This document shows positions 2,169 to 57,880 of a stretch of 64,000 nt of DNA, piece by piece. The notes below the pieces were generated by a model, which was given only the letters and a program-made list of their open reading frames with translations, did not search any database and was not told the DNA's origin. The position numbers were made by a program, and so were the translations under genes. Each line of letters opens with the position of its first letter. The first letter of the stretch is position 1. The DNA comes from Sycon ciliatum. Its lineage: Eukaryota > Porifera > Calcarea > Leucosolenida > Sycettidae. The DNA lies in contig NC_088644.1 in NCBI RefSeq assembly GCF_964019385.1, positions 15,141,531-15,205,530 on the forward strand, written 5' to 3'.

Positions 2169-2729
2169 TGTATGTGTATCATTGAAGTTGCAATACGTAC
2201 ATTGCTGTGACTCGCCCGATTGCTGTTGCCGGGCACCTACGCATTTATTTGCCTACTTGTGAAGATATATCTCTTCTGGTTTATTGCATAATTCTTGGCT
2301 CAATGTTATCCACGGTGTCGCTCGATGCAAAGTCTCATAAATATTTATCAGACAAACTTGAAAGAAAGAAAAAACTATGGCAAACCCCACTACCTTGTAT
2401 TCTATCTGCTTGGTGTACATGTGTCCACGTTTTGTATGTTTGGCACGCACATGCGTGTGTGTGTATGTGAGAGCGTGTCTGGATAAATGTGCATATTGAT
2501 GTTTTGTTTGTTTTAAGTTTTATTGTGTGTATGCGTGCATGCATGTGGGTTAATGTATATTGTTAAGTATGTACAGTACTAAAAATAAAGAAAATAAAGG
2601 GTTTGCTCCCCACACTGGAGCTCGCGCTATTTCGACGACTTTACTTGACACTTGACTGACTCACGACTGCCATCCAGAGCACACGAGAAGTCCATCGAAC
2701 CTTCGACTCGGCAAACCTGCAAGAAAGCA

Positions 2730-2793
2730 CCACTCCCTACTCAATACACAGTGTTTCGGGGAATTCACCCCTCATCAGTTGAGCTTGAGTAGG
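2730..2793 (-). ncRNA. Type I hammerhead ribozyme (left arm of foldback)
   Basis: On the minus strand: GCTCAA (stem I), CTGATGA, GGGG-TGAATT-CCCC (stem II), GAA, then the short stem III ACACTGTGT, the cleavage base A, and TTGAGT (stem I). The sixth stem I pair is a G-T wobble here; in the array copies it is G-C. All invariant core bases are present. Confidence 0.85.
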
Positions 2794-3022
2794 CTGAGGA
2801 AGATTGTGCCTGAAGAGCACCACTTATATAGTGCTCTCCAGGCACAAACATCAACGTCTGTTCTCACCGTCCAGGAGCGACACTGACTCACGCTGCTATC
2901 TGGTGTTCACGAGGTGTTTGTCTCGCTGGAAACGGAGCGTCTTTGTAAGTTTGTATCCCTGGTGATGTTTGTGCCTGGAGAGCACTATATAAGTGGTGCT
3001 CTTCAGGCACAATCTTCCTCAG

Positions 3023-3086
3023 CCTACTCAAGCTCAACTGATGAGGGGTGAATTCCCCGAAACACTGTGTATTGAGCAGGAAGCTG
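3023..3086 (+). ncRNA. Type I hammerhead ribozyme (right arm of foldback)
   Basis: CTGATGA at 3038-3044, stem II GGGG/CCCC, GAA at 3059-3061, and predicted cleavage after A3071. Proximal stem I is GCTCAA (3032-3037) with TTGAGC (3072-3077), six perfect pairs. The distal part of stem I has decayed relative to the array copies, so tertiary contacts may be weaker. Confidence 0.88.
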
Positions 3087-3316
3087 TGCTTTCTTGCAGG
3101 TTTGACGAGTCGAAGGTTCGATGGACTTCTCGTGTGCTCTGGATGGCAGTCGTGAGTCAGTCAAGTGTCAAGTAAAGTCGGCGGAATAGCGCGAGCTCCA
3201 GTGTGGGGAGCAAACCCTTTCTTACAAATCATCGCCGAAGTCGCAACCACTACTTCGTATTCTGTACAGTACTGCTAAATGAAATCCAATCGTACTAGTT
3301 CACACCCAAGTGTTCA

Positions 3317-7063: not shown

Positions 7064-7163
7064 TAAACCATAAGAGGACAGAGAAAGTGTTTTAACACTG
7101 ATGATTGCTTAGTGCGTGAAACTCAGAGTTAAAAAACACTTCCTCTGTCCTCTTATGGTTTTA
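7064..7163. mobile_element. Short palindromic MITE with hammerhead-like loop
   Basis: Arms of about 33 bp, AACCATAAGAGGACAGAG at the left and its complement at the right, flank a 35-bp loop containing CTGATGA and GAAAC. A diverged copy of the loop is at 52515-52560. The element is too short to code. Confidence 0.7.
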
Positions 7164-16712: not shown

Positions 16713-16985
16713 ACTGGTTTGAGGGAAAGAGACAAACGGGAAAAGTCTGAAGAAAAATTGACTGTCACCACCAGGACTCGAACCAGGGACCCTCGCTTGT
16801 AGCCAACGATGCTCTAACCACTGAGCTATGGTGTAATCGTCATCCCAGCAGAGACCGTTCAACGTTTTCTTCAGACTTCGTAACTCACACTTCCTGTAAA
16901 TCCACACAGGCGGGTGGGACGCAGCCCTCACTGTAACCCACACACTTCACGTACAAACTAGCACGCGGGGAGCCCCAAGTCATAA
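16712..16985 (-). mobile_element. tRNA-derived SINE, full-length-like copy
   Basis: On the minus strand a unique head (about 16860-16985) precedes a tRNA-like module (about 16766-16835). The module has box A ATAGCTCAGTGGTTAGAGC, a plausible anticodon arm, and box B GGTTCGAGTCC. A 3' domain follows, ending CTCAAACCAGTTAA, then an (ATT)n tail. RNA polymerase III would transcribe it. Mobilisation presumably needs a LINE with the same tail. Confidence 0.85.
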
Positions 16986-16989
16986 AATA

Positions 16990-17165
16990 TGAACTGGTTT
17001 GAGGGAAAGAGACAAACGGGAAAAGTCTGAAGAAAAATTGACTGTCACCACCAGGACTCGAACCAGGGACCCTCGCTTGTAGCCAACGATGCTCTAACCA
17101 CTGAGCTATGGTGTAGTCGTCATCCCAGCAGAGACCGTTCAACATTATTATTATTATTATTATTT
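16990..17165 (-). mobile_element. tRNA-derived SINE, 5'-truncated copy
   Basis: Same tRNA-like module and 3' end as 16712-16985. On the plus strand it is cut off just after CAGCAGAGACCGTTCAAC, where an (ATT)n run (17144-17163) begins. Confidence 0.82.
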
Positions 17166-17167
17166 GA

Positions 17168-17409
17168 AACTCGGGTATTGAGCCAATAATAAAAGTTACG
17201 GAGATGTGTTGAAGCTAGGTGTCAGGACGTCGAATGTCTCAGTACTCTGTCAGTTTTGTGCCTAGTTGTTGCACTTTCTGACTGTATATAGTATCTAGTT
17301 ACAGTGGTGGAGAGTTACTCTTAACTCGTTTCCATAATATATTATGTCCTTTTCCTTTCTACTATTATTATTATTATTAGTATTTAAATAGGCGTCGAGG
17401 CGACAATAG
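17168..17409. other. Unassigned spacer
   Basis: Contains one (ATT)n run (17362-17380) and nothing else recognisable. Confidence 0.4.
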
Positions 17410-17624
17410 TTTTAGAATTGCGATCAACAGAACGAGCTGAACCGACATTTTCACAAAGGCTTTTATTGTATTCAAAAAACTTTTTTGTTCATCATTTCTT
17501 CCATATCACATTTTTTCTTTCTTCCATGTTCTTCACTGCCTTCGTATACACTCGTTTTTTGAATACAATAAAAGCCTTTGTGAAAATGTCGGTTCAGCTC
17601 GTTCTGTTGATCGCAATTCTAAAA
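17410..17624. mobile_element. Palindromic MITE with perfect 71-bp arms
   Basis: 17410-17480 and 17554-17624 are exact inverted copies (TTTTAGAATTGCGATCAACA to TTCAAAAAAC) around a 73-bp loop. The right end abuts (ATT)n. No coding capacity. Confidence 0.92.
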
Positions 17625-17648
17625 TTATTATTATTATTATTATTATTG

Positions 17649-17885
17649 ACTGGTTTGAGGGAAAGAGACAAACGGGAAAAGTCTGAAGAAAAAATTGACT
17701 GTCACCACCAGGACTCGAACCAGGGACCCTCGCTTGTAGCCAGCGATGCTCTAACCACTGAGCTATGGTGTAGTCGTCATCCCAGCAGAGGCCGTTCAAC
17801 ATTTTCTTCAGACTTCGTAACTCACACTTCCTGTGAATCCACACAGGCGGGTGGGACGCAGCCCTCACTGTAACCCACACACTTC
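17649..17885 (-). mobile_element. tRNA-derived SINE, third minus-strand copy
   Basis: Nearly full-length: head with GGGTTACAGTGAGGGCTGCG, tRNA-like module with box B at about 17713-17723, and the 3' domain. (ATT)n runs lie on both sides (17625-17646 and 17886-17903). It lies directly beside the 71-bp-arm palindrome. Confidence 0.85.
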
Positions 17886-21466: not shown

Positions 21467-22997
21467 CGAGAGAGCTTGGAAGCTCAGGGCCCTACGCTAT
21501 GCTTTTTTGCCTTGATGACCTAGACAAAAAAAGCATAGGGATGTTATAAATTCTTTAAAAAAATCCTTTTTTTTAAGACATAACCTGGGATTCGAACCCG
21601 CACTATCGCGCGCCCTGCATGCATCCCCCGATACACTTCGCATACATACTAATTCTTCCAAGTTGTTTCACATTGTGATCTTGCATTTGAAAGCCCTATT
21701 TGAATATGCATAGTGGCCAGCCGTCTTTGATGGCACGGTACGGTAGTGGATAGGTACGGGACAGGTACGATCGAGGGTAATACTACACCGTCTCCCGTAC
21801 CGTACCGTACCATCAAACACAGCTGGCCACATACAGCTGCCCGCAATGTTAATAGGGCTTTCAAACGCAAGATAATAACGTGAAGCAACTTGGAAGAATG
21901 GGTATGAATGCTAAGTGTATGGGGGAATGCATGTAGGACGATAGTGTGGGTTCGAATCCCAGGATTTGCCTGGGAATAAAATAGGAAAAATCGAAAAATT
22001 TATAACATCCTATGCTTTTTTGCCGTCAGATACGGATAGCACCAGGCGTGACACAAACAAACAAACAAACACACAAACACACAAATACCAAACGAGAGAG
22101 CTTGGAAGCTCAGGGCCCTGCGCTATGCTTTGTTGCCTAGCTCATCGTGCATGTTGTTAGAACTGATGGAAAAGTTTTTTTCCTTTGATTAGCTACATCA
22201 TTGTATTGCAAAAACGTTTCAATGAGTTACTGAAGTAACGTCTTCTGCATAGCTATGGGACCGGCGCTGACTCTGCCGATCACGGGCGTTCTGGAGTCGA
22301 CGGGATGTCTGTCGTGCCGTTTCCTGGGACCGGCGCTGACTCTGCCGATCACGGGCGTTCGTCTTATTCTTATTATTATACTGTCGGCAACTAACATCCA
22401 TTCTAATTGCATTTACTCGTCTCCCTACTTCGTATTTCTTTCCAGAAAATCTCCCCATACAGCAGGGAGTCGTTTACATAATATGACTCCCTGCTATACA
22501 TCTACATGACTGTATACACGTTATAATTATTATGCTATCGGCCTACATGCGATTCCCGGGCTGTTCGACAGGCGGCCCAGCCAGCCTGCTAGTGGGATCT
22601 CGGCCTCGCACACAAATCCACACAAAATGTTACTGCGCTGAATGCATTCCCCGATACACTTCGCATAATATACTCATTCTCTTGATGGTACCGTACACTT
22701 GATGGTACGGGACAGGTACGGGATAGCGCCAGGCATGCCGATGGCACAAACAAACAAACATATTGTGGCCACCTGTCTTTGTTGGTACGGTACGGTACGG
22801 GACAGATACAGGATAGCGCCAGGCGTGACACAAACAAACAAACAAACAAACAAACACCAAATTAAAGCTGTGTGGACCCTGGCTAGCGCCAGACGTTACT
22901 GAAGTAACGTCTTCTGCATAGCTACGGGAATTAAAGCTGTGTGGACCCTGGCTAGCGCCAGACGTTACTGAAGTAAGGTCTTCTGCATAGCTACGGG
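21467..22997 (-). mobile_element. R1 composite insertion in the LINE 3' UTR, with AATAAA target duplication
   Basis: The insert begins CGAGAGAGCTTGGAAGC and ends in the reverse complement of CCCGTAGCTATGC. It is flanked by AATAAA at 21461-21466 and 22998-23003. Inside are two tRNA-like modules (box B at 21598-21608 minus and 21949-21959 plus), TTTG-type runs and two tandem copies of the 69-bp hairpin unit (22862-22997). It also has a large inner segment that recurs at 48.7-49.3 kb. Confidence 0.8.
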
Positions 22998-23059
22998 AAT
23001 AAATATTACAAATTACTGGAGGCAAAGAGAACCAAATCTGGATGAAGAATTAGCAGTTA

Positions 23060-28509: not shown

Positions 28510-28541
28510 TTGTGAATTATTTAATTTGAAAGTTTTATTTT

Positions 28542-29384
28542 GTGAAAAGAATGTCGAGAAGTGTGTCGCCGAGTGGTAGTGGTAGTGAGAGTGAAGGGTA
28601 TGTTGAGGAGAGTAGGAGGATGAGAGAGATGGCTGCGAGATTGGAGACGTTGGAGAGGAAGTTGGAGAAGTCTAGTCGTAAGAGGAAAAGAGAGGATAGG
28701 AGTGACAGTGAGAGCGAGAGTGAGTCAGAGAGGAGCAGGAGAAGTGGCAGGAGTAGAAGTAGCAAGAGGAGAAACAGCAAGAAGAGCAAGAGGAGCAAGG
28801 AAAGTAAGCAGGTGAAGAGGGAGAGACAGGACGAGAGGATGGCGGCGGCAAGAAAGAGAAGTTGGAAGGCCAAGGCTCACGAGGAGCAGTTCTGCGTGAT
28901 AAGTAAGGCGTTGGAGCCTCTAGCCAAGGCAAGGCAGAAGGCAGAGCGTCGAGGCGAGAAGGACATCGCCAGAAACATAGAGGAAGGTGAGAGCGTCCTC
29001 CAGCGGCGAGTCAAGTTATTGCTGTTTGCGGACGCCGAAGGGTGGTCGGCCGCAAACATTTATGATGGTAAAATGGAGTGCGGGTCCGATACGGACGATG
29101 AGCGGAGGATGAGGAGGGCCAGGGCGGAGGCCAAGGAGGGGAAGAGGAGCAGTGGCAAGCCCTTTCCAGGAGGCCGCCCAGCCGGGGTCGGGCTCGGAGC
29201 GGCTGCTCGAGCTCAGACCATGCCGGCCGCACCGAAGCCACCCGGATTCGGCGCCCCGTTCAAGGAGCTGGCCTGTTGGCGGTGCGGAGGGAAGGGGCAC
29301 GTGCAGAGGGACTGCACGCAGCCTGCCCCAGGCCCAGCACCTGCCAGGTCATTCCCGATGCAACAGCAACAGCAGCCACGATGA
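28542..29384 (+). CDS. Ngaro Gag-like protein with CCHC zinc knuckle
   Basis: 280 codons from ATG 28542, 32 bp after repeat A1. The N-terminal third is very rich in Ser, Arg, Glu and Lys (predicted coiled coil and RS-like region, residues about 20-110). Residues about 115-175 (EEQFCVISKALEPLAKARQK) look like a structured core. Near the C-terminus CWRCGGKGHVQRDC is a perfect C-x2-C-x4-H-x4-C knuckle for RNA binding. It would package the element RNA. It overlaps the RT frame (+1), suggesting programmed frameshifting or re-initiation. Confidence 0.85.
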   Translation: MKRMSRSVSPSGSGSESEGYVEESRRMREMAARLETLERKLEKSSRKRKREDRSDSESESESERSRRSGRSRSSKRRNSKKSKRSKESKQVKRERQDERMAAARKRSWKAKAHEEQFCVISKALEPLAKARQKAERRGEKDIARNIEEGESVLQRRVKLLLFADAEGWSAANIYDGKMECGSDTDDERRMRRARAEAKEGKRSSGKPFPGGRPAGVGLGAAARAQTMPAAPKPPGFGAPFKELACWRCGGKGHVQRDCTQPAPGPAPARSFPMQQQQQPR

Positions 29385-31461
29385 ACAAGATAAGTTTGAT
29401 GTGCATGTTGTTGATGATGATGAGGATGAGGATGATGAAAAGAGTGTTCAAACTTATTCAGATGTTGTGGCTGAAAGCGGATATGGTGCGGAAGGGGAAG
29501 GGGAAGGGGAAATCTGGGCAGAGGGTGAAACTGTGATGCATGGGAGATTGAAGCGGTGCATACCGTTTTGGAGGGAGATGGGGGCTTCATCTTGGATTAT
29601 TAGTATTTTGGAGGTCGGTTATGCGTTGCCGTTTGTAACAGACCCTCCGTCTGGTTTTTTAAGGAATCAGAAAAGCTGTTGGAAGCATGTACAATTTGTT
29701 GATGAGGCAGTGAAGGGGCTGGTAGACTGCGGGAGTGCGATGAAAGTAAACGAATCTGAGTTAAATTGTGTTAGCCCGCTGGGAGTGGTGGAAGGTGCTA
29801 GGAAGCTGAGACTGATTTTAGACTTGAGGCAAGTGAATGAATGTTTGGCAAAATTCAGGTTTAAATTGGATGATATCAGGATGGCAGTGAAGCTTTTTCA
29901 GAAAGACGACTTTGTTGTAACATTCGATTTGAAGAGTGGTTATCACCATGTTGATATGGCAAGGGACCATTGGAAATATTTGGGTTTCTCATGGGGAGGT
30001 GAATTTTATTGTTTCAAGTCATTGCCGTTTGGGCTCTCCACTGCTCCGTATCTTTTTAACAAACTGGTCCGTGTGATGGTTCGTTACTGGAGGGCTCAGG
30101 GCATTAAGTGCATGATGTTCTTTGACGATGGCTCTGCAGGAGCGGGCACTGTGGAAGAGACAGTGAGGGTAGCAGGTGTGCTCACGGAAACGTTGGAAAG
30201 AGCGGGTTGGAAGATCAATGTGGAGAAATCGTGTCTTGTGCCTTCTCAGAAGCCTACCATTCTGGGTTTTGTGTTGGACCTGGTTCACGGGAGAGTAAGT
30301 GTGGCGGAGGCAAGAGTTCTGAGGTTTTTGGAGCATTTGAGGGTTTTGCATAGCAAGAGGAGACCGAATGCCAAAGAGTGTGCTAGGCTGGCTGGGTTCA
30401 TCATTTCAATGTCTTTCGCCATTGGGCCAGTTGCAAGGTTGAGAACCAGGGCATTGTATGACATGATTCTCAGGAGGAAAAGCTGGTTTCATAGACAGGA
30501 GTGGTCTGATGAGGCTTATGCAGAAGTGAGCTTCTGGTGGTATTGTTTCAATGAGTTTCATGGAAGATTGGTTGTGGGTGATCCAAAGATAACAGCAGTT
30601 GTAGACACGTGGTCAGATGCTAGCGATGTAGCCTGGGGAGGTTTTGCGGTGTCCTGCGGGGAAACGATTGCAAGAGGGAATTGGCCAGAAGAGGTGTTAG
30701 AGGCTCAGAAGAGTTCTACGTGGAGGGAATTGAGGGCTACCGAGTTGGTGCTGCAATCGGTGGTCCAAGAATTGGCAGGCAAGGAATGTAGGCACCGGAC
30801 GGATAATCAGGCGGCAGCTCGTATTCTGCAGGTGGGCAGCAAAGTTCCAGAACTGCAGGAGATTGCATGTCGGATTTTCAGGTTTTGCAGGCAAAATTGC
30901 ATTCGACTTGTGCCAGAATGGGTTCCAAGGGAGGAGAATGTTCTGGCAGATTTTTTATCCAAGGTAGTGGATACTGATGACTGGAAATTGTCGTCTGAGG
31001 TATTCGACGAGATAGACGGTTTGTGGGGCCCGCACACTGTTGACTGCTTTGCCAGTGCAGAGTCGGCACAGTTGCCTCGTTTCTGCTCACGTTGGTGGAA
31101 TCCAGGATGTTTGGCCGTGGATGCTTTCACGATGTGCTGGGAAGGGGAGAACTTATGGTTGTGCCCCCCCATTTACCTTATTGGAGACGTTATTAGCAGA
31201 ATTTCAGTGATTGTCAGTCATGGGACATTGGTTGTCCCAAAATGGACATCTGCATGGTGGTGGCCATACTTATTCAAAGGTACTGAAAGCTCCACGTTGG
31301 TGAGGAGTTTTATTTTCCTGCCTAGAATATCAGGTCTGTTTGACAGTGGCTCTTGCCAATGGAATTGGTTTGATGGGAAGGTGCCAAGGTGTGAAGTCAT
31401 GGCAATCAGGTTCTGTAGTATCATGGGCTGTCGGTGCTGTGAGACAGAATGTCGGGAATGA
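29152..31461 (+). CDS. Ngaro reverse transcriptase - RNase H polyprotein
   Basis: 769 open codons; roughly the first 78 overlap gag and may not be translated. RT blocks: LRLILDLRQVNECL, VVTFDLKSGYHHVDM (first Asp), KSLPFGLSTAPYLF, and MFFDDGSAG with the catalytic Asp pair at 30124-30129. RNase H blocks: VDTWSDASDVAWGGFAV (about 30600), STWRELRATELVL, and HRTDNQAAARIL, then ADFLSKVVD. The DIRS-group tail WGPHTVDCFASAESAQLPRF and WWNPGCLAVDAFTM follows. No lesions are visible, so it is potentially active. Confidence 0.92.
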   Translation: MASPFQEAAQPGSGSERLLELRPCRPHRSHPDSAPRSRSWPVGGAEGRGTCRGTARSLPQAQHLPGHSRCNSNSSHDEQDKFDVHVVDDDEDEDDEKSVQTYSDVVAESGYGAEGEGEGEIWAEGETVMHGRLKRCIPFWREMGASSWIISILEVGYALPFVTDPPSGFLRNQKSCWKHVQFVDEAVKGLVDCGSAMKVNESELNCVSPLGVVEGARKLRLILDLRQVNECLAKFRFKLDDIRMAVKLFQKDDFVVTFDLKSGYHHVDMARDHWKYLGFSWGGEFYCFKSLPFGLSTAPYLFNKLVRVMVRYWRAQGIKCMMFFDDGSAGAGTVEETVRVAGVLTETLERAGWKINVEKSCLVPSQKPTILGFVLDLVHGRVSVAEARVLRFLEHLRVLHSKRRPNAKECARLAGFIISMSFAIGPVARLRTRALYDMILRRKSWFHRQEWSDEAYAEVSFWWYCFNEFHGRLVVGDPKITAVVDTWSDASDVAWGGFAVSCGETIARGNWPEEVLEAQKSSTWRELRATELVLQSVVQELAGKECRHRTDNQAAARILQVGSKVPELQEIACRIFRFCRQNCIRLVPEWVPREENVLADFLSKVVDTDDWKLSSEVFDEIDGLWGPHTVDCFASAESAQLPRFCSRWWNPGCLAVDAFTMCWEGENLWLCPPIYLIGDVISRISVIVSHGTLVVPKWTSAWWWPYLFKGTESSTLVRSFIFLPRISGLFDSGSCQWNWFDGKVPRCEVMAIRFCSIMGCRCCETECRE

Positions 31462-31970
31462 TATTGAACTTAAAGACAAGGTGTCTGCAGATGGTTCTGT
31501 GTTTTGCTGTGTGTTGGTTGTTGATTGGCTGCAGATTCTAGAGGCTAGTTCTGCAAGACGCACATGGTGCATAGCCTGAGGCAGGCTGGACGGTCCTGGG
31601 GGCTGTGCTGGTGGATCCAGCGCCAAGGAGCTGCCAACATACCAACAGAGGGAAGTCTGGTTTGGTACTTGCCTTGTATTATTATTAGCTGTGTTTTGCA
31701 TGTTCCAAGGTGTGAAGTCATGGCAGCCAGGTCCAGTAGTATCATGGGGTGTCAGCGCGGTGGGACATGATGTCTAGGTATCTGCAGAAGGTTCTGTGTT
31801 CTGCTATGTGTTGTTGATTGGCTGCAGAATCTAGAGGCTAGTTCTGTAAGACGCACAGGGTGCATAGCCTGAGGCAGGCTGGAGGGTCCGGAGGGAATGT
31901 GTAGGTGGATCTTGCACCACGGAGCTGTCAACATATCAACACAGGGAAGTCTTGTTTTGGTTCTTGCTTA
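31385..31970. repeat. Diverged tandem duplication between RT and YR, unit about 318 bp
   Basis: Segments beginning AAGGTGTGAAGTCATGGCA (31385 and 31701) each contain CTAGAGGCTAGTTCTG and GCATAGCCTGAGGCAGGCTGG in the same order. The first copy overlaps the end of the RT ORF. An (ATT)n run follows at 31969-31991. Confidence 0.8.
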
Positions 31971-32143
31971 TTATTATTATTATTATTATTAATGTTGTGA
32001 GCTGTATTTTTTGGCAGGTCATGTGGTTGTGTATGGCTGGTGCATGTTAGCCATTATTATGTAACATGGCATAGGAGGAGGCTTGTAGCTGGAGCACAAG
32101 CTTGTGCGGTCTGAATAACGAGGCTTATATTGTGGTTCTTTCC

Positions 32144-33157
32144 ATGTGCTTGCTAAAAATTTTAGAGATCTGGGACCAGGGGTGCTGGAAGGAGCTACAG
32201 GAAGTAGCTGAAGGCAAGGGCCTAGTGAGTTTGTCGGAACGAGCCAAGGACTTGGTGATGGAGACACATGCGTCATCTACGGTGAAGACCTACAAGTCGG
32301 CATTTTCGCGTTGGAAAAGCTGGGCTATGGAGCATGGGTTTGTGGCGATACCCGCTACACCGGTGGCAGTCAGTTTGTACCTGATCCACCTCGTAGAGAC
32401 GAGCGCATCCGCAAGCCCAATTTCTGCAGCTCTGTCCGCAATCAAATGGGCTCATCAGAAGGCATGCGTACAGCTTCCTGTCAATGCCATGGTGGAGCAG
32501 ATTGCAGCAGCGGCAAAAAGGAGGTTAGCTTGCACCCCCAGGCGGAAAGAGCCCCTCAACAAGAAGCAGGTGGCTACGATCGTGGGTCAACTTGCCGGGA
32601 GCGACGATTGTCTGAAGCTGCGGACAGCGGTTATGTTTGCCATTGGATTTGCTGGCTTCATGAGGTGGGACGATTTGGCGAGAATCCGGGTGCGGGACAT
32701 TGCATTCCGTCAAGACTACATGGAGGTTCGTTTGGATAAGCGCAAGAATGACCAGCTCAGAGAAGGCAGCTTGGTCCTCATAAGCACGCAGCCTGGTGAG
32801 CTGGGAGCGGTAGCTCTGACGCAGAGGCTGATCGAAGAAACGAACCTTCAAGCTGATGATCATTTGCTGAGTAACTTGGTGAAAGCGAAGTCTGGCTGGA
32901 AGACGAAGAAAGGGTCACTCCAGTACTCCAGAGCAAGAGAGCTGTTCCTAGAGGCAGTGTCAGGAGCAGGCCTACAGGCAGAGATGTTCGGCCTGCACAG
33001 CCTCCGATCGGGGGGTACGACGGCAGCGGCCGCAGCCAAGGTTCCACAGCGACTGTTGAAACGGCATGGTGGCTGGCACAGTGAAGCAGTCAACTCCTAC
33101 ATCAAAGAGAGTCTGGACAATATGCTCTTGCCATCTAGTGCCGTTAGCTGGCACTAG
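32144..33157 (+). CDS. Ngaro tyrosine recombinase (YR)
   Basis: Catalyses integration of the circular cDNA without a target duplication. The frame is open from 32102; the first ATG is at 32144. An N-terminal core-binding region (HASSTVKTYKSAFSRWKSWA) precedes the catalytic domain. Catalytic residues in order are Arg at codon 32663 (GFMRWDDLARI), His 32996 and Arg 33005 (HSLRSGG), His 33065 (RHGGW) and the nucleophile Tyr 33098 (NSYIKES). The complete R-H-R-H-Y set is present, so activity is plausible. Stop at 33155-33157, 27 bp before repeat B1. Confidence 0.92.
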   Translation: MCLLKILEIWDQGCWKELQEVAEGKGLVSLSERAKDLVMETHASSTVKTYKSAFSRWKSWAMEHGFVAIPATPVAVSLYLIHLVETSASASPISAALSAIKWAHQKACVQLPVNAMVEQIAAAAKRRLACTPRRKEPLNKKQVATIVGQLAGSDDCLKLRTAVMFAIGFAGFMRWDDLARIRVRDIAFRQDYMEVRLDKRKNDQLREGSLVLISTQPGELGAVALTQRLIEETNLQADDHLLSNLVKAKSGWKTKKGSLQYSRARELFLEAVSGAGLQAEMFGLHSLRSGGTTAAAAAKVPQRLLKRHGGWHSEAVNSYIKESLDNMLLPSSAVSWH

Positions 33158-33621: not shown

Positions 33622-34311
33622 TATCTCTTAGCCTGTCACCAGGAAACCCTATATATAGGGTTTGACATAACGCTACACATAAAGACCCTATATATAGGGT
33701 TAGGACCCCTAAAGAAAGGGTTTGATCAGTCCTCACAACTGGGCACACAATACACACAGTTTCACTTGTGTTTTTTTTTGATATTTTCACTGCATTGCCA
33801 TTGATGTTAGCAGGAGCGCTCCTACGACGTGCGCGAGTGTCGCCACATTTGCTGCTTCCGACCCACGTGTGGATCAGCTGATGCAGAAACGGCAATGGCG
33901 GGAGCGGCAGCTGCGACAGCCGCTGTTGATGCTTCGCCTTCTTCTTCAGGAGCATCCGACGCTGCTGGAACATCGACATCATCATCCTGAGTCGACACCA
34001 GGTCGCCAGGAACATTCTCATCGCCCGAGTTCGTCTCCACTAACTCAAGTTGCTCTTCCTCCATCGTGAAAAATCAAACCCTAGATATAGGGTCTAGAAA
34101 ATGTTACGACAGCGCTGCACTAAAACTAACCGTACTCGAAGAAAACAGCAACAAAATGATCACGGTCTTCAGCAAGAGAACCGTACGTACATTCTACGTA
34201 TGTAGGCCCAGGCGTCTAGTTGCCATAGCAGCCAAGTGGGCTCTCAAGAGAGCTCAAGATAGAACGCGCGGCTGAAAACCCTATATATAGGGTTTGACAG
34301 GCTAAGAGATA
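33622..34311. mobile_element. 690-bp TIR transposon T1 (provisional name), copy 1
   Basis: Perfect terminal inverted repeats, TATCTCTTAGCCTGTCA, and TA at both ends suggest a TA target. Subterminal palindromes AACCCTATATATAGGGTT occur near 33646, 33688 and 34275, with a variant near 34077. The interior has a short acidic minus-strand ORF. The copy at 45063-45751 is almost identical, differing by a one-base indel and about one substitution. Confidence 0.9.
33822..34064 (-). CDS. Short acidic ORF of transposon T1
   Basis: 80 codons starting MEEEQLELVETNSGDENVPG, rich in Glu, Asp and Ala (residues 1-60), ending VGRKQQMWRHSRTS. It may be the N-terminal piece of a lost transposase or only a decoy. 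No domain is recognised. The same ORF is conserved in the second copy. Confidence 0.35.
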   Translation of the reverse strand: MEEEQLELVETNSGDENVPGDLVSTQDDDVDVPAASDAPEEEGEASTAAVAAAAPAIAVSASADPHVGRKQQMWRHSRTS

Positions 34312-34465: not shown

Positions 34466-34671
34466 CAAACACTGAGGTGCAAAATATAGTTTACATGGTT
34501 ACAGTACGAACTTAGAAGTTGCGACTTCGGCGGTAATAGTCATGAAGTTGGTTGCTCAAACGAGGAGCACACGCTTCTTGCCGAACTTGACACTTGACTG
34601 ACTCTCGACTGCCATCCGGAGCACACGAGGAGAACGTCGAACCTTCCGCTCGGCAAACCTGAAAGAAAGCA

Positions 34672-34735
34672 CCACTCCCTGCTCAATACACAGTGTTTCG
34701 GGGAATTCACCCCTCATCAGTTGAGCTTGAGTAGG
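34672..34735 (-). ncRNA. Type I hammerhead ribozyme, array unit 1
   Basis: Minus strand: ACTC/GAGT distal and GCTCAA/TTGAGC proximal stem I, separated by an AA/AGG internal loop. Then CTGATGA, stem II GGGG-TGAATT-CCCC, GAA, stem III ACACTGTGT and cleavage after GTA. All invariant hammerhead bases are present. Confidence 0.92.
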
Positions 34736-35147
34736 CTGAGGAAGATTGTGCCTGAAAAGCACCACTTATATACTGCTCTCCAGGCCAAACAATCACCAGG
34801 GATACAAACTTACAGAGACGCTTTGTTTCCAGGGCGACAAACACCTCGTGAAGCCCCAGGTAGCAGCGTGAGTCAGAGTCGCTCATGGAGTGGTGCTAAA
34901 CAGACGTTGGGAGCCAGTATAGCTATTCACAACGCTGTCACCTCCAAGAACTAGTCGCACGTCCACGTGAGGGACAACAATACGAACTTAGAAGTTGCGA
35001 CTTCGGCGATAATAGTCATGAAGTTGGTTGCTCCCACGAGGAGAACACGCTTCTTGCCGAACTTGACACTTGACTGACTTACGATTGCCATCCGGAGCAC
35101 ACGAGGAGCACGTCGAACCTTCCGCTCGGCAAACCTGAAAGAAAGCA

Positions 35148-35211
35148 CCACTCCCTGCTCAATACACAGTGTTTCGGGGAATTCACCCCTCATCAGTTGA
35201 GCTTGAGTAGG
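35148..35211 (-). ncRNA. Type I hammerhead ribozyme, array unit 2
   Basis: Same sequence and fold as unit 1, with no core change. Confidence 0.92.
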
Positions 35212-35624
35212 CTGAGGAAGATTGTGGCTGACAAGCACCACTTATATACTGCTCTCCAGGCCAAACCATCACCAGGGATACAAACTTACAGAGACGTTTT
35301 GTTTCCAGCGCGACAAACACCTCGTGAAGCCCCAGGTAGCAGCGTGAGTCAGAGTCGCTCATGGAGTGGTGCTAAACAGACGTTGAGAGCCAGTATAGCT
35401 ATTCACAACGCTGTCACCTCCAACAACTAGTCGCACGTCCGCGTGAGGGACAACAATACGAACTTAGAAGTTGCGACTTCGGCGGTAATAGTCATGAAGT
35501 TGGTTGCTCCAACGAGGAGCACACGCTTCTTGCCGAACTTGACACTTGACTTGACTCACGACTGCCATCCGGAGCACACGAGGAGCACGTCGAACCTTCC
35601 GCTCGGCAAACCTGAAAGAAAGCA

Positions 35625-35688
35625 CCACTCCCTGCTCAATACACAGTGTTTCGGGGAATTCACCCCTCATCAGTTGAGCTTGAGTAAG
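35625..35688 (-). ncRNA. Type I hammerhead ribozyme, array unit 3
   Basis: Core identical. One change in the outermost stem I strand (GCTTACTC instead of GCCTACTC) does not affect the core. Confidence 0.9.
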
Positions 35689-36101
35689 CTGAGGAAGATT
35701 GTGGCTGAAAAACACCACTTATATACTGCTCTCCAGGCCAAACCATCACCAGGGATACAAACTAACAGAGACACTTTGTTTCCAGCGCGACAAACACCTC
35801 GTGAAGCCCCAGGTAGCAGCGTGAGTCAGAATCGCTCATGGAGTGGTGCTAAACAGACGTTGAGAGCCAGTATAGCTATTCACAACGCTGTCACCTCCAA
35901 CAACTAGTCGCACGTCCGCGTGAGGGACAACAATACGAACTTAGAAGTTGCGACTTCGGCGGTAATAGTCATGAAGTTGGTTTCTCCAACGAGGAGCACA
36001 CGCTTCTTGCCGAACTGGACACTTGACTTGACTCACGACTGCCATCCGGAGCACACGAGGAGCACGTCGAACCTTCCGCTCGGCAAACCTGAAAGAAAGC
36101 A

Positions 36102-36165
36102 CCACTCCCTGCTCAATACACAGTGTTTCGGGGAATTCACCCCTCATCAGTTGAGCTTGAGTAGG
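36102..36165 (-). ncRNA. Type I hammerhead ribozyme, array unit 4
   Basis: Same sequence and fold as unit 1. Confidence 0.92.
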
Positions 36166-36577
36166 CTGAGGAAGATTGTGGCTGAAAAGCACCACTTATA
36201 TACTGCTCTCCAGGCCAAACCATCACCAGGGATACAAACTTACAGAGACGCTTTGTTTCCAGCGCGACAAACACCTCGTGAAGCCCCAGGTAGCAGCGTG
36301 AGTCAGAGTCGCTCATGGAGTGGTGCTAAACAGACGTTGAGAGCCAGTATAGCTATTCAAAACGCTGTCACCTCCAACAACTAGTCGCACGTCCACGTGA
36401 GGGACAACAATACGAACTTAGAAGTTGCGACTTCGGCGATAATAGTCATGAAGTTGGTTGCTCCAACGAGGAGCACACGCTTCTTGCCGAACTTGACACG
36501 TGACTGACTCACGACTGCCATCCGGAGCACACGAGGAGCACGTCGAACCTTCCGCTCGGCAAACCTGAAAGAAAGCA

Positions 36578-36641
36578 CCACTCCCTGCTCAATACACAGT
36601 GTTTCGGGGAATTCACCCCTCATCAGTTGAGCTTGAGTAGG
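36578..36641 (-). ncRNA. Type I hammerhead ribozyme, array unit 5
   Basis: Same sequence and fold as unit 1. It is the last minus-strand copy before the inversion point. Confidence 0.92.
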
Positions 36642-36901
36642 CTGAGGAAGATTGTGGCTGAAAAGCACCACTTATATACTGCTCTCCAGGCCAAACCATC
36701 ACCAAGGATACAAACTTACAGAAACGCTTTGTTTCCAGCGCGACAAACACCTCGTGAAGCCCCAGGTAGCAGCGTGAGTCAGAGTCGCTCATGGAGTGGT
36801 GCTAAACAGACGTTGAGAGCCAGTATAGCTATTCACAACGCTGTCACCTCCAACAACTGGTCGCACGTCCGCGTGAGGGACAACAATACGAACTTAGAAG
36901 A

Positions 36902-36957
36902 AACCTGAAAGAAAGCACCACTCCCTGAGCAGGGAGTGGTGCTTTCTTTCAGGTTTG
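36902..36957. repeat. Inversion junction of the array (snap-back hairpin)
   Basis: AAACCTGAAAGAAAGCACCA...CTCCCT is followed at once by AGCAGGGAGTGG and the exact complement, a near-perfect palindrome centred near 36929. The right arm enters the unit within two bases of the predicted ribozyme cleavage site (TTGAGCAGGG). Confidence 0.85.
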
Positions 36958-37351
36958 CCGAGCGGAAGGTTCGACGTGCTCCTCGTGTGCTCCGGATGGC
37001 AGTCGTGAGTCAGTCAAGTGTCAAGTTCGGCAAGAAGCGTGTGCTCCTCGTTGGAGAAACCAACTTCATGACTATTACCGCCGAAGTCGCAACTTCTAAG
37101 TTCGTATTGTTGTCCCTCACGCGGACGTGCGACTAGTTGTTGGATGTGACAGCGTTGTGAATAGCTATACTGGCTCTCAACGTCTGTTTAGCACCACTCC
37201 ATGAGCGACTCTGACTCACGCTGCTACCTGGGGCTTCACGAGGTGTTTGTCGCGCTGGAAACAAAGCGTCTCTGTAAGTTTGTATCCCTGGTGATGGTTT
37301 GGCCTGGAGAGCAGTATATAAGTGGTGCTTTTCAGCCACAATCTTCCTCAG

Positions 37352-37415
37352 CCTACTCAAGCTCAACTGATGAGGGGTGAATTCCCCGAAACACTGTGTA
37401 TTGAGCAGGGAGTGG
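37352..37415 (+). ncRNA. Type I hammerhead ribozyme, array unit 6
   Basis: GCTCAA 37361-37366, CTGATGA 37367-37373, stem II to 37387, GAA 37388-37390, cleavage after A37400, TTGAGC 37401-37406. A TATATAAG box lies upstream at 37315-37322. Confidence 0.93.
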
Positions 37416-37827
37416 TGCTTTCTTTCAGGTTTGCCGAGCGGAAGGTTCGACGTGCTCCTCGTGTGCTCCGGATGGCAGTCGTGAGTCAGTCAAGTGTCAA
37501 GTTCGGCAAGAAGCGTGTGCTCCTAGTTGGAGCAACCAACTTCATGACTATTATCGCCGAAGTCGCAACTTCTAAGTTCGTATTGTTGTCCCTCACGCGG
37601 ACGTGCGACTAGTTGTTGGAGGTGACAGCGTTGTGAATAGCTATACTGACTCTCAACGTCTGTTTAGCACCACTCCATGAGCGACTCTGACTCACGCTGC
37701 TACCTGGGGCTTCACGAGGTGTTTGTCGCGCTGGAAACAAAGCGTCTCTGTAAGTTTGTATCCCTGGTGATGGTTTGGCCTGGAGAGCAGTATATAAGTG
37801 GTGCTTTTCAGCCACAATCTTCCTCAG

Positions 37828-37891
37828 CCTACTCAAGCTCAACTGATGAGGGGTGAATTCCCCGAAACACTGTGTATTGAGCAGGGAGTGG
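37828..37891 (+). ncRNA. Type I hammerhead ribozyme, array unit 7
   Basis: Identical core. Predicted cleavage after A37876. Confidence 0.93.
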
Positions 37892-38304
37892 TGCTTTCTT
37901 TCAGGTTTGCCGAGCGGAAGGTTCGACGTGCTCCTCGTGTGCTCCGGATGGCAGTCGTGAGTCAGTCAAGTGTCAAGTTCGGCAAGAAGCGTGTGCTCCT
38001 CCTTGGAGCAACCACCTTCATGACTATTACCGCCGAAGTCGCAACTTCTAAGTTCGTATTGTTGTCCCTCACGCGGACGTGCGACTAGTTGTTGGAGGTG
38101 ACAGCGTTGTGAATAGCTATACTGGCTCTCAACGTCTGTTTAGCACCACTCCATGAGCGACTCTGACTCACGCTGCTACCTGGGGGACTCACGAGGTGTT
38201 TGTCGCGCTGGAAACAAAGTGTCTCTGTAAGTTTGTATCCCTGGTGATGGTTTGGCCTGGAGAGCAGTATATAAGTGGTGCTTTTCAGCCACAATCTTCC
38301 TCAG

Positions 38305-38368
38305 CCTACTCAAGCTCAACTGATGAGGGGTGAATTCCCCGAAACACTGTGTATTGAGCAGGGAGTGG
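38305..38368 (+). ncRNA. Type I hammerhead ribozyme, array unit 8
   Basis: Identical core. Predicted cleavage after A38353. Confidence 0.93.
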
Positions 38369-38723
38369 TGCTTTCTTTCAGGTTTGCTGAGCGGAAGGTT
38401 CGACGTGCTCCTCGTGTGCTCCGGATGGCAGTCGTGAGTCAGTCAAGTGTCAAGTTCGGCAAGAAGCGTGTGCTCCTCGTTGGAGCAACCAACTTCATGG
38501 TTACAGTGCTAAGGAAAAGGGTGTAAGTCTTGTGTTAAGCCTAAAATCCAATTTTCACCAGTTGTAGTCTTCGGGGTGCAGGCGACAACTTTCACACCAA
38601 GGTTCAACTCGAGTGACAGAAACTCGCTCAAACATGCTGTAAGTAATTAGTTGTAGCCTGCAGGAACGGTGACCAGGTGACTAGTGTACACACGAGCATG
38701 TGACCGCTTGTTCAGCCATGTTC

Positions 38724-45062: not shown

Positions 45063-45751
45063 TATCTCTTAGCCTGTCACCAGGAAACCCTATATATAGG
45101 GTTTGACATAACGCTACACATAAAGACCCTATATATAGGGTTAGGACCCCTAAAGAAAGGGTTTGATCAGTCCTCACAACTGGGCACACAATACACACAG
45201 TTTCACTTGGTTTTTTTTTGATATTTTCACTGCATTGCCATTGATGTTAGCAGGAGCGCTCCTACGACGTGCGCGAGTGTCGCCGCATTTGCTGCTTCCG
45301 ACCCACGTGTGGATCAGCTGATGCAGAAACGGCAATGGCGGGAGCGGCAGCTGCGACAGCCGCTGTTGATGCTTCGCCTTCTTCTTCAGGAGCATCCGAC
45401 GCTGCTGGAACATCGACATCATCATCCTGAGTCGACACCAGGTCGCCAGGAACATTCTCATCGCCCGAGTTCGTCTCCACTAACTCAAGTTGCTCTTCCT
45501 CCATCGTGAAAAATCAAACCCTAGATATAGGGTCTAGAAAATGTTACGACAGCGCTGCACTAAAACTAACCGTACTCGAAGAAAACAGCAACAAAATGAT
45601 CACGGTCTTCAGCAAGAGAACCGTACGTACATTCTACGTATGTAGGCCCAGGCGTCTAGTTGCCATAGCAGCCAAGTGGGCTCTCAAGAGAGCTCAAGAT
45701 AGAACGCGCGGCTGAAAACCCTATATATAGGGTTTGACAGGCTAAGAGATA
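45063..45751. mobile_element. TIR transposon T1, copy 2
   Basis: 689 bp with the same perfect TIRs and AACCCTATATATAGGGTT palindromes as copy 1. Near-identity implies recent transposition. It inserted at TA inside the MITE. Confidence 0.9.
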
Positions 45752-47621: not shown

Positions 47622-47668
47622 TTAGTGATGTCGAATTGGCGCGTGCGCTGGATGAAAAATTATTTTAT

Positions 47669-49262
47669 TCCCATAGCTATGCAAAAGACGTTACTTCAGT
47701 AACATCTGGCGCTACCCAGGGTCCACACAGCTTTAATTCCCGTAGCTATGCAGAAGACGTTACTTCAGTAACGTCTGGCGCTAGCCAGGGTCCACACAGC
47801 TTTAATTCCCGTAGCTATGCAGAAGACGTTACTTCAGTAACGTCTGGCGCTAGCCAGGGTCCACACAGCTTTAATTTGGTGTTTGTTTGTTTGTTTGTTT
47901 GTTTGTTTGTTTGTGTCACGCCTGGCGCTATCCTGTATCTGTCCCGTACCGTACCGTACCAACAAAGACAGCTGGCCACAATATTTTTGTTTGTTTGTGC
48001 CATCGGCATGCCTGGCGCTATCCCGTACCTGTCCGGTACCATCAAGTGTACGGTACCAGTGATCTAGCCAAAGCCGGCTCAGCCGGCATTTTGCCGGCTG
48101 GGAGGGCGACCCGCCGGCTGAGACAGCTCCAAGGGTAATTTTGGCCGGCTGCAGTCACCAGGTCACCCCCATGTAGACTGTAGTGCACTGCACTAGCACT
48201 TGAGTGGAGATGGTGGAGTACAACCCATATCCTAGGCTCGAGTAGGTATGTACTACAGTACAGTACGTAGCACTGGCTACTCAGGCTCAGTGCTAGCTCT
48301 TCACTCAAGATCAAGCTCAAATGCACTTGAGTATGCACTTGAGTACGTCAGTAAAATGTAACAGGTTGGGTCATGGTTCGCTGCTTCTGGTGGTGTACAG
48401 GCTGTGGCTAGGCTGGGTCTTGTCAGATGACCAATGTACACTGCATGCAGACATGACGTTGGTGAACACATGATCCATGCTCATGTAGCTGTTTGCTTCC
48501 TTTTTCATATTTTGTTAATTTACCTATAATCACATTTTCACAACTGCCTGATAAATGCCCATAATTGGACGAAGCGAAAGGAGATGCAAGCTGCAATGAA
48601 AGATTTGTAGTGGTGTGTGTGTGTCTGTGTGGATACGTGACTGACGGCGGGGTCTGGGGGCGCAGCCCCCAGAACGATGCATTTTAACTAGAACGTTGGC
48701 CGGCTGGCATAAAATCCTGGCTAGACCTCTGGGTACCATCAAGAGAATGAGTATATATGCGAAGTGTATCGGGGAATGCATTCAGTGCAGTACCATTTTG
48801 TGTGGATTTGTGTGCGAGGCCGAGATCCCACTAGCAGGCTGGCTGGGCCGCCTGTCGAACAGCCCGGGAATCGCATGTAGGCCGATAGCATAATAATTAT
48901 AACGCGTATACAGTCATGTAGATGTATGGCAGGGAGTCATATTATGTAAACGACTCCCTGCTGTATGGGGAGATTTTCTGGAAAGAAATACGAAGTAGGG
49001 AGACGAGAAAATGCAATTAGAATGGATGTTAGTTGCCGTCAGTATAATAATAAGAAGAAGACGAACGCCCGTGGTCGGCAGAGTCAGCGCCGGTCCCAGG
49101 AAACGGCAGGACAGACATCCCGTCGACTCCAGAACGCCCGTGATCGGCAGAGTCAGCGCCGGTCCCATAGCTATGCAGAAGACGTTACTTCAGTAACTCA
49201 TTGAAACGTTTTTGCAATACAATGAAGTAGCTAATCAAAGGAAAAAAACGTTTCCATCAGTT
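47669..49262 (+). mobile_element. R1 composite copy homologous to 21467-22997
   Basis: Begins with three tandem 69-bp hairpin units (47669-47875), then (TTTG)n, then the inner segment shared with the 21.5-23 kb composite (48738-49260). A 674-bp element at 48058-48731 interrupts it. Confidence 0.82.
48058..48731. mobile_element. 674-bp insertion with GGTACC target duplication
   Basis: Flanked by GGTACC at 48052-48057 and 48732-48737. The homologous R1 composite at about 22690 has a single GGTACC and no insert. The ends AGTGATCTAGCCA and TGGCTAGACCTCT are inverted imperfectly. GCCGGC motifs cluster at both ends. Confidence 0.82.
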
Positions 49263-50878
49263 CTAACAACATGCACGATGAGCTAGGCAACAAAGCATAG
49301 CGCAGGGCCCTGAGCTTCCAAGCTCTCTCGTTTGGTATTTGTTTGTTTGTGTGTTTGTTTGTTTGTTTGTTTGTGTCACGCCTGGCGCTATCCGTATCTG
49401 ACGGCAAAAAAGCATAGGATGTTATAAATTTTTCAATTCTCCTTTTTTTTTCAGGCATATCCTGGGATTCGAACCCGCACTATCGCCCTACATGCATTCC
49501 CCCATACACTTCGCATTCATACCCATTCTTCCAAGTTGCTTCACGTTAATCTTGCGTTTGAAAGCCCTATTTGAATATTGCGGGCAGCTAGACGGTGTCG
49601 TATTACCCTCGATCGTGCCTGTCCCGTACCTATTCCCTACCGTACCGTGCCATCAAAGATGGCTGGCCACAATGCATATTCAAATAGGGCTTTCAAATGC
49701 AAGATCACAATGTGAAACAACTTGGAAGAATTAGTATGTATGCGAAGTGTATCGGGGGCTGCATGCAGGGCGCGCGATAGTGCGGGTTCGAATCCCAGGT
49801 TAAAAAAAAGGATTTTTTTAAAGAAAACATCCCTATGCTTTTTTTTGTCTAGGTCATCAAGGCAAAAAAGCATAGCGCAGGGCCCTGAGCTTCCAAGCTC
49901 TCTCGTTTGGTGTTTGTGGCGGGCGGGCGGACCTTTGTCTGGCGCTATCCTGTATCTGTCCCGTACCGTACCATCAAAGACAGCTGGCCACAAACAGCTG
50001 GCCACAATATTCAAATAGGGCTTTCAAATGCAAGATCATAACGTGAAGCAACTTGGAAGAATGAGTATGAATGCGAAGTGTATCGGGTAATGCATGTAGG
50101 GCGATTGTGCGGGTTCGAATCCCAGGTTATGCCATAACATCCCTATGCTTTTTTGCCTAGGTCATCAAGGTGGTAGACGGTGTCGTATTACCCTCGACCG
50201 TACCTGTCCCGTACCGTTCTGTACCATCAAAGACGGCTGGCCACAAACAGCTGGCCACAATATTCAAATAGGGCTTTCAAATGCAAGATCATAACGTGAA
50301 GCAACTTGGAAGAATTAGTATGTATGCGAAGTGTATTGGGGGATGCATGCAGGGCAATAGTGCGGGTTCGAATCCCAAGTTATGTCTAAAAAAATAGGAG
50401 AAATGAAAAATTTACTATGCTTTTTTTGCCTAGGTCATCAAGTCAAAAAAGCATAGTTTAGGGCTCTGAGCTTCCAGGCTTTCTCGTTCCGTGTTTGTTT
50501 GTTTGTGGCATCGGCATGCCTGGCGCTATCCCGCACCTGTCCCGTACCGTACCATCAAAGACAGCTGTCCACAATATTCAAATAGGGCTTTGAAATGCAA
50601 GATCATAACGTGAAGCAACTTGGAAGAATGAGTATGTATCCGAAGTGTATCGGAAAATGCATGCAGGGCGATAGTGCGGGTTCGAATCCTAGGTTATGTC
50701 TATAAAAAATAGAAGAAATGAAAATTTCCCTATGCTTTTTTTGCGTAGGTCATCAAGGTGGTAGATGGTGTCGTATTACCCTCGAATGCAAAGAGAAAGT
50801 TTATAATAACATGCATGATGAGCTAGGCAAAAAAGCATAGCGTAGGGCCCTGAGCTTCCAAGCTCTCTCGTTAGTGAT
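49263..50878. mobile_element. Cluster of R1 tRNA-like modules
   Basis: Box B sequences lie at 49465-49475 (minus), 49785-49795, 50112-50122, 50365-50375 and 50679-50689 (plus). Each is preceded by GCAACTTGGAAGAA...GCGAAGTGTATCGG. Blocks alternate with GAGCTTCCAAGCTCTC ends and TTTG runs. Confidence 0.78.
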
Positions 50879-57553: not shown

Positions 57554-57880
57554 GCAGCTCTACGTTGAGCTAACAGCAGCTCTACTTTGAGCTAACAGCA
57601 GCTCTATATTGAGCTAACCGCAGCTCTACTTTGAGCTAACAGCAGCTCTACTTTGAGCTAACAGCAGCTCTACCTTGAGCTGACAGCAGCTCTACTTTGA
57701 GCTAACAGCAGCTCTACTTTGAGCTAATCGCAGCTCTACTTTGAGTTACCAGCAGCTCTACTTTTAGCTAACCACAGCTCTACTTTGAGCTAACAGCAGC
57801 TCTACTTTGAGCTAACCGCAGCTCTACTTTGAGCTAACACCTGCTCTGCTCTGAGCTAACAGCAGCTCTACTTTGAGCTT
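57554..57880. repeat. 22-bp minisatellite, about 15 copies
   Basis: GCAGCTCTACTTTGAGCTAA repeats with an exact 22-bp period and scattered substitutions. Each unit contains paired AGCT sites. Confidence 0.95.

Follow-up and report, generated by a model that had tools for sequence, protein, structure and literature searches.

What kind of element spreads hammerhead ribozymes through a genome in repeated units, and which enzyme puts it there? The question is raised by positions 34494-38507 of the 64,000-nucleotide stretch of contig NC_088644.1 analysed here (the window), which a first, sequence-only reading had described as a tandem array of hammerhead ribozymes and a likely metazoan retrozyme. 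We consider it probable that this is a retrozyme-like hammerhead element of 476-nt units, without an open reading frame (ORF) of its own, and that it was moved in trans by an enzyme of the type encoded by Penelope-like elements (PLEs), which would have primed on both target strands. The inverted layout of the locus, its flanking duplications and a second copy elsewhere in the window had been missed by the sequence-only reading and are the most informative parts. The earlier observation was partly confirmed, and its interpretation is partly supported.

Throughout, units are numbered from the predicted ribozyme cut, GUGUA^UUGAG, with position 1 directly 3' of it. Two stretches, 34501-36900 (97% matches) and 36926-38499 (98% matches), consist of repeats with a period of 476 bp, and complete units measure 476 or 477 bp, in agreement with the length given before. 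Likewise, the eight hammerheads reported between 34500 and 38510 were recovered with identical cores, CTGATGAGGGGTGAATTCCCCGAAA. While the repeat units stood, the single tandem array did not: five minus-strand hammerheads are followed by three on the plus strand, head to head, and CATGGTTACAGT flanks the whole. Stretch 34494-38507 looks like a single insertion with direct-repeat flanks of up to 12 bp. The left target-site duplication (34494-34505) is an exact 12-nt match to the right one (38496-38507). The duplication is counted as 7 to 12 bp, because CATG and the final T of CATGGTTACAGT are also present in the element. As a chance level for such flanks, at least 11 nt were shared in 4 of 2991 random pairs of 31-nt stretches.

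The left array (M; 34506-36900, sense on the minus strand) has its outer end at unit 181-182 and its inner end at 169. Its five cores, identified by core count and a type I descriptor, lie at 36602-36626 (nearest the joint), 36126-36150, 35649-35673, 35172-35196 and 34696-34720 (outermost). The right array (P; 36926-38495, plus strand) ends at unit 142, ambiguous to 146 since CATG is common to the duplication. Next to the joint it holds a complete type I hammerhead at 37353-37415 (core 37367-37391, predicted cut 37400/37401), followed by cores at 37843-37867 and 38320-38344, identified in the same way. The two heads are linked by a perfect 27-bp palindrome with a 2-nt centre (36901-36956), within which the right array begins, at unit position 2.

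The same layout recurs in a second, smaller inverted copy at 2570-3273, with two hammerheads and an 11-bp duplication, TGTACAGTACT, at 2570-2580 and 3263-3273. Its left half (2596-2853, minus strand, core 2754-2778) has the outer end AGCAAACCCTTT, aligned to unit 142 with the last nucleotides assigned by eye; 15 additional A-rich nucleotides lie beyond it at 2581-2595. The right half (2851-3262, plus strand, core 3038-3062) ends at unit 184 plus one nucleotide. At the joint, the halves overlap by 3 nt, TCA. In each insertion, then, one outer boundary falls on site B (142) and its counterpart, 35-42 nt away in the unit, on site A (181-184). Sense strands run outwards in both insertions, and therefore the 3' sides of the RNA face the target while the heads meet inside. 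The segment between the two sites (unit 143-182; an internal example lies at 37543-37582 on the plus strand) is comparable to the 'tail' of PLEs and holds CGCCGAAGTCGCAAC, which is common to the main and the second insertion.

Whether other copies use the same two ends was assessed with an 80-aa frame that runs through the ribozyme as the query. It matched 146 proteins at E<=1, and the best 120 of these 146 are all labelled 'ena', many on contigs above 100 kb, so that at least one public assembly holds dispersed members of the family. Of the best 120, 118 were anchorable and 96 extended at least 3 residues into the flank, which we took as informative ends; the allele list used for this count was derived from the same matches. 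Homology was left between residues 50 and 77 in 70 of the 96. These ends gathered at residues 57-60 (unit 140-149; 32 ends) and 69-72 (unit 176-185; 21 ends), together 53 of 70, and the best two four-residue windows held 54, with a maximum of 40 in 3000 uniform draws. Under a stricter identity-only rule, 39 of 69 ends fell into two three-residue windows (41 in the scan versus a maximum of 34 in 5000 draws), and 13 ends lay at residue 54, mostly copies of a variant type (TINF in place of ATNF) whose homology extends to about residue 58. Copies of the second-insertion subtype that reach the GSKPF region, the point of the second insertion's own B end, numbered 10 by motif count; by eye, 7 of them leave homology there and 3 continue into the tail. 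A crude motif count of main-type frames gave 26 with the tail and 38 without it.

With regard to the ribozyme, CTGATGAGGGGTGAATTCCCCGAAA occurs at 10 loci in the window (0.09 expected; 0 of 100 shuffles reached 10), and a type I descriptor with the conserved residues found exactly these loci in the 64 kb, whereas 100 dinucleotide shuffles gave no match. The stems and the core pairs G10.1-C11.1, GAA-A15.1 and U16.1-A17 are as had been described: GCUCAA/UUGAGC forms stem I and extends past an AA/AGG loop, GGGG/CCCC forms stem II, and ACA/UGU with a CUG loop forms stem III. The invariance claimed for the copies holds for the cores and fails at the outermost stem I pair, which changes from C-G to U-G in the left-array unit M2. 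In an alignment of 10 units of the main insertion, 4 of them partial, this pair is the only one of 38 variable columns inside the 63-nt ribozyme, where a hand estimate would expect about 5; from unit position 430 through the cut to 34 no column varies. The consensus of the main insertion and the right half of the second are identical at 45 of 45 positions between inner stem I and a point shortly after the cut, at 56 of 61 in the leader with its TATA-like box, and at 244 of 311 outside ribozyme and leader. The longest stretch without a mismatch between them, 73 nt, covers the ribozyme, and 0 of 20000 shuffles attained this length. The TATA-like box, TATATAAG, lies 45-52 nt 5' of the core (unit 391-398; for example 37315-37322, plus strand) and is also present in both halves of the second insertion.

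CTGATGA...GAA also occurs in two similar plus-strand stretches, at 7098 and 52525, in which stem II has a U.U at its base and stem III reads ACU/AGU. The stretch at 7098 sits in a fold-back repeat resembling a miniature inverted-repeat transposable element, and its stem I does not adjoin the core, so a hammerhead is doubtful there.

Several results count against the reading proposed here, and those that concern the ribozyme are closely tied to the possibility that the motif is not a working hammerhead. The covariance-model search that the sequence-only reading had named as its check, with a score below threshold to speak against the motif, found no Rfam hammerhead: in runs without a positive control, Rfam 15 gave no match at gathering threshold over the window, none at E<=10 over 4.2 kb, and none on 101 bases around one core. 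Stem III, only 3 bp long, adds no stability (-18.5 with it, -18.7 without it, best fold -19.0), its pairs have local probabilities of 0.06-0.09, and in both insertions the fold of the 67-nt ribozyme stretch is no more stable than that of shuffled sequence (z of -0.36 and -0.11). On the other side, all core residues are present, at ten loci compared with 0 in 100 shuffles, the hammerhead fold lies within 0.5 kcal/mol of the optimum, and variation has largely spared the ribozyme. Moreover, two copies of the stem III sequence ACACUGUGU are able to pair over 8 bp around a U.U, and dimeric cleavage is therefore expected, as in amphibian hammerheads. We lean towards regarding the silence of Rfam as a blind spot of its models more than as evidence against the motif, and a non-working hammerhead seems very unlikely to us; we infer self-cleavage at this locus. 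The Rfam matches that did appear do not belong to hammerhead families: weak ones at E<=10 to mir-142 (twice) and mir-488 fall on the joint palindrome, and four on the 101-base stretch (three small nucleolar RNAs and CLRN1-AS1) are chance-like.

The remaining contrary points concern the ends and the mover. The compared copies, related and perhaps derived from a single genome, cannot count as independent draws, and 26 of the 96 informative ends lie below residue 50, with 22 of them at 41-44, where the second-insertion subtype shifts frame. Runs of I, L, Y or N occur in 6 of 45 flanks versus 2 of 77 control windows; the difference suggests a possible preference for ATT-rich flanks, as in PLEs, but it is slight, and both targets in the window are free of ATT-richness. 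No PLE gene was found in the window: GIY-YIG, the endonuclease domain, was matched neither by a narrow regular expression in the six frames of the window nor in a Pfam scan of 20 of its open frames. Target-site duplications are themselves variable in PLEs: in Adineta Penelope, several copies have duplications of 8-10 bp and others have none (PMC3846280), and that some published PLE insertions lack them is a further point on this side. Finally, inverted copies with flanking duplications also arise by twin priming, according to a published abstract, and an enzyme of a long interspersed nuclear element (LINE) may have moved the element in this way, as for inverted human L1 copies. Frames for RVT_1 and a LINE-type endonuclease do lie in the window, and the 15 A-rich nucleotides at one junction of the second insertion would suit such an origin. 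In twin priming of L1, a tail is found only at the true 3' end, and the point within the RNA from which the inverted part begins is variable. The outer ends here, in contrast, coincide with two fixed internal sites that are reused in other copies and resemble the PLE tail, which makes a LINE mover quite unlikely.

Returning to transfer by a PLE-type enzyme, the template can be characterised to some extent. Each array, and each half of the second insertion, crosses uncut ribozyme sites, and the RNA was therefore multimeric or circular. Five of the 38 variable columns are common to several units, two of them being CpG transitions, while a hand estimate gives about 0.5 coincidences under uniform mutation. 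Such sharing favours a heterogeneous multimeric template or later gene conversion over one monomeric circle; rolling copying of a monomeric circle with later random mutation is disfavoured, and gene conversion is possible. On whether one multimeric RNA may have served both arrays, the columns disagree: 155 (M1, P1 and also M4) and 345 (M2, P2) line up when counted from the joint, and 134, 88 and 199 do not. The shared sites, for example of M1 with M4 and of M2 with M3, are also what exchange or conversion predicts for an ordinary satellite, with arrays formed by unequal exchange and inversion and the ribozyme a mere relic. However, a satellite accounts poorly for two insertions that are bordered by direct repeats and share one pair of end sites, for the clustered ends in other copies, and for ribozyme cores that are identical at all ten loci while the remainder diverges, and we regard it as highly improbable.

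A 476-nt circular RNA from the locus, as proposed before, is plausible. Folded as a circle, the unit reaches -175.6 kcal/mol (z of -3.3; 0 of 200 shuffles as low), but its paired fraction of 0.68 is close to the 0.66 of shuffles. The right array starts at unit 2 as if copying had run off a cleaved 5' end, which a hand estimate puts at about 1% by chance; this is a single event, and the joint of the second insertion lies elsewhere. The 27-bp palindrome may reflect a short snap-back where the right array ends.

Layout, flanking repeats, the two end sites, ribozyme conservation and the structures of the joints are read directly from the sequence; cleavage, circularisation, the identity of the enzyme and the order of steps are what we infer for the following cycle. 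The arrays would first be transcribed, each unit having a type I hammerhead downstream of its TATA-like box. The weak hammerheads, partly as dimers through pairing of ACACUGUGU, would then cut some of the sites and release monomers, multimers and probably circles, with UUGAG at the 5' end. A PLE-type reverse transcriptase (RT) with endonuclease, acting in trans, would cut both target strands and begin copying inside the RNA at two sites separated by about 40 nt, one strand from B (142) and one from A (181-184). Each strand might be copied over one to several units toward the 5' end of the RNA, and the joining of the two cDNA heads, through microhomology or a brief snap-back, would leave a head-to-head pair whose duplication reaches up to 11-12 bp.

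No RT or endonuclease frame was found inside the element. The element is therefore not itself a PLE, though its insertions look PLE-like. A related explanation takes the arrays as the ORF-less remains of an autonomous PLE in the same genome, namely as its pseudo-long-terminal repeats (pLTRs), with the pLTR being this 476-bp unit. It draws on the ATG within the hammerhead core, given that the ORF of an Anolis PLE also starts at stem II (PMC11167929), on the 80-codon frame, which passes through the cut site and both end sites, and on the ability of PLE pLTRs to carry unrelated sequence elsewhere (PMC3846280). That frame, the longest sense ATG frame in the arrays, nevertheless comprises no more than 80 codons, and in two units a shift reduces it to 68 aa. 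The ATG is inherent to the CUGAUGA of the ribozyme, and antisense frames of 137 aa, which we take as chance, are equally open in two units. An ORF-bearing copy was not seen in a search confined to proteins of at most 140 aa. As the start of a PLE ORF, the 80-codon frame has no support beyond chance, and we judge that the arrays are rather unlikely to be such remains.

RT frames of the window also bear on the host. The top-ranked named relative of two of them is a protein with an scpid identifier (51-53% identity over 56% of the query), a prefix that is used for Sycon ciliatum (PMC6526912), and lower-ranked named relatives include coral and amphioxus. Two further matches reach 94-95% over part of the query, on contigs of 0.35 and 1.0 Mb. 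Of the earlier label 'metazoan retrozyme', the retrozyme-like element is well supported by motif, conservation and anatomy; the first word is suggested by these weak matches of RT frames, from which a sponge seems a likely host. Exact-pattern scans of viral contigs and of genome contigs returned 0 stretches each.

Just 5' of the main array, frames for a zinc knuckle, RVT_1 and Phage_integrase follow in that order at 28530-33157 (plus strand), presumably a DIRS-like retroelement. At least 300 nt are 100% identical between 33770-34069 and 45210-45509, 11.4 kb apart, and the first of these stretches ends about 425 bp before the array. Further out, arms of 615 nt at 22053-22667 and 48756-49370 are 98% complementary and 26 kb apart, and 69-bp repeats with the palindrome GTTACTGAAGTAAC lie near them at 22860-23000 and 47663-47876. 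Three tRNA matches within about 1 kb at 16766-17770 (minus strand), each inside a 196-nt repeat, form either a tRNA cluster or a tRNA-derived short interspersed nuclear element. A 22-bp minisatellite with 14.8 copies occupies 57554-57879.

Among known systems, the W-elements of Schistosoma (PMC8490949) are similar in that satellite-like repeats, in four families, hold hammerhead-like sequences, but they are long satellite arrays of the W chromosome, and no head-to-head insertion is described in the passages cited. The hammerhead repeats of newt and axolotl, as summarised in PMC7229834, share a short stem III that favours dimeric cleavage, the multimeric RNAs having been found in those animals. 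They differ in being vertebrate, with units of 330-350 bp, and that summary describes no inverted layout. The metazoan non-LTR (long terminal repeat) retrozymes of the same paper resemble the element in having a type I hammerhead per unit, a weak stem III in some hosts, tandem repeats from dimers to multimers, and no coding region. Their duplications, when present, exceed 4 bp, compared with 7-12 and 11 bp here. In contrast, retrozyme repeats of 150-450 bp with RNAs of 170-400 nt were reported, and a GC content below 50%, a descriptive rather than mechanistic trait; the unit described here has 476 bp and 52% GC (51.9% in the consensus). The unit size lies just above the reported range and the GC content is not below 50%, and we therefore term the element a retrozyme variant, not a plain member. 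Also different are the head-to-head arrays and the two fixed 3' ends, the word 'inverted' being absent from PMC7229834, and the kept TATA-like box, since retrozymes seemingly lack promoters according to the cited part of a 2020 review (PMC7761336).

The mover of animal retrozymes has so far been open. In the 2020 paper, PLEs were named only as strong candidates, based on shared hammerheads, tandem copies and co-existence (PMC7229834). We found no structural evidence for PLE mobilisation of retrozymes in the open-licence literature, nor any work there that joins 'retrozyme' with 'head-to-head' or 'hammerhead ribozyme' with 'Porifera'. The ends and inversions of this locus constitute structural evidence for such a link. 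Counterparts are found in the endonuclease-bearing PLEs of Adineta and Anolis, with which the element shares head-to-head repeats, short duplications, a TATA-like box, a joint palindrome and, on its two sides, ends that differ by about 40 nt and at which initiation would take place. In Adineta Penelope, inverted pLTRs are most often head to head, with a 31-bp tail optional on one of them, the described pLTR has a TATA box, and palindromes occur at inverted junctions (PMC3846280). Anolis Poseidon, like the present element, has a hammerhead within the repeat. Its purified enzyme cleaves and extends both strands, and two adjacent internal start sites on the RNA explain the 30-40 bp tail, which the authors called unique to PLEs (PMC11167929). 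Unlike these elements, ours has neither an RT nor a GIY-YIG gene and has as many as five consecutive hammerhead units on one side.

The comparison also bears on how PLE insertions become head to head. The Adineta study explained this orientation through self-priming on an antisense template and left a sense template open (PMC3846280). Our insertions favour priming of both strands over a single self-primed copy, because inner and outer ends differ between the halves in both insertions. Taken further, the hammerhead retrozymes of this genome might be satellites of PLEs, with the head-to-head, PLE-like architecture made by dual-site, dual-strand priming over several units of uncut or circular RNA and not by antisense self-priming; this wider proposal is tentative, and we would put it somewhat below an even chance. 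What the locus predicts for the enzyme is specific, namely two start sites separated by about 40 nt, each of which serves one strand.

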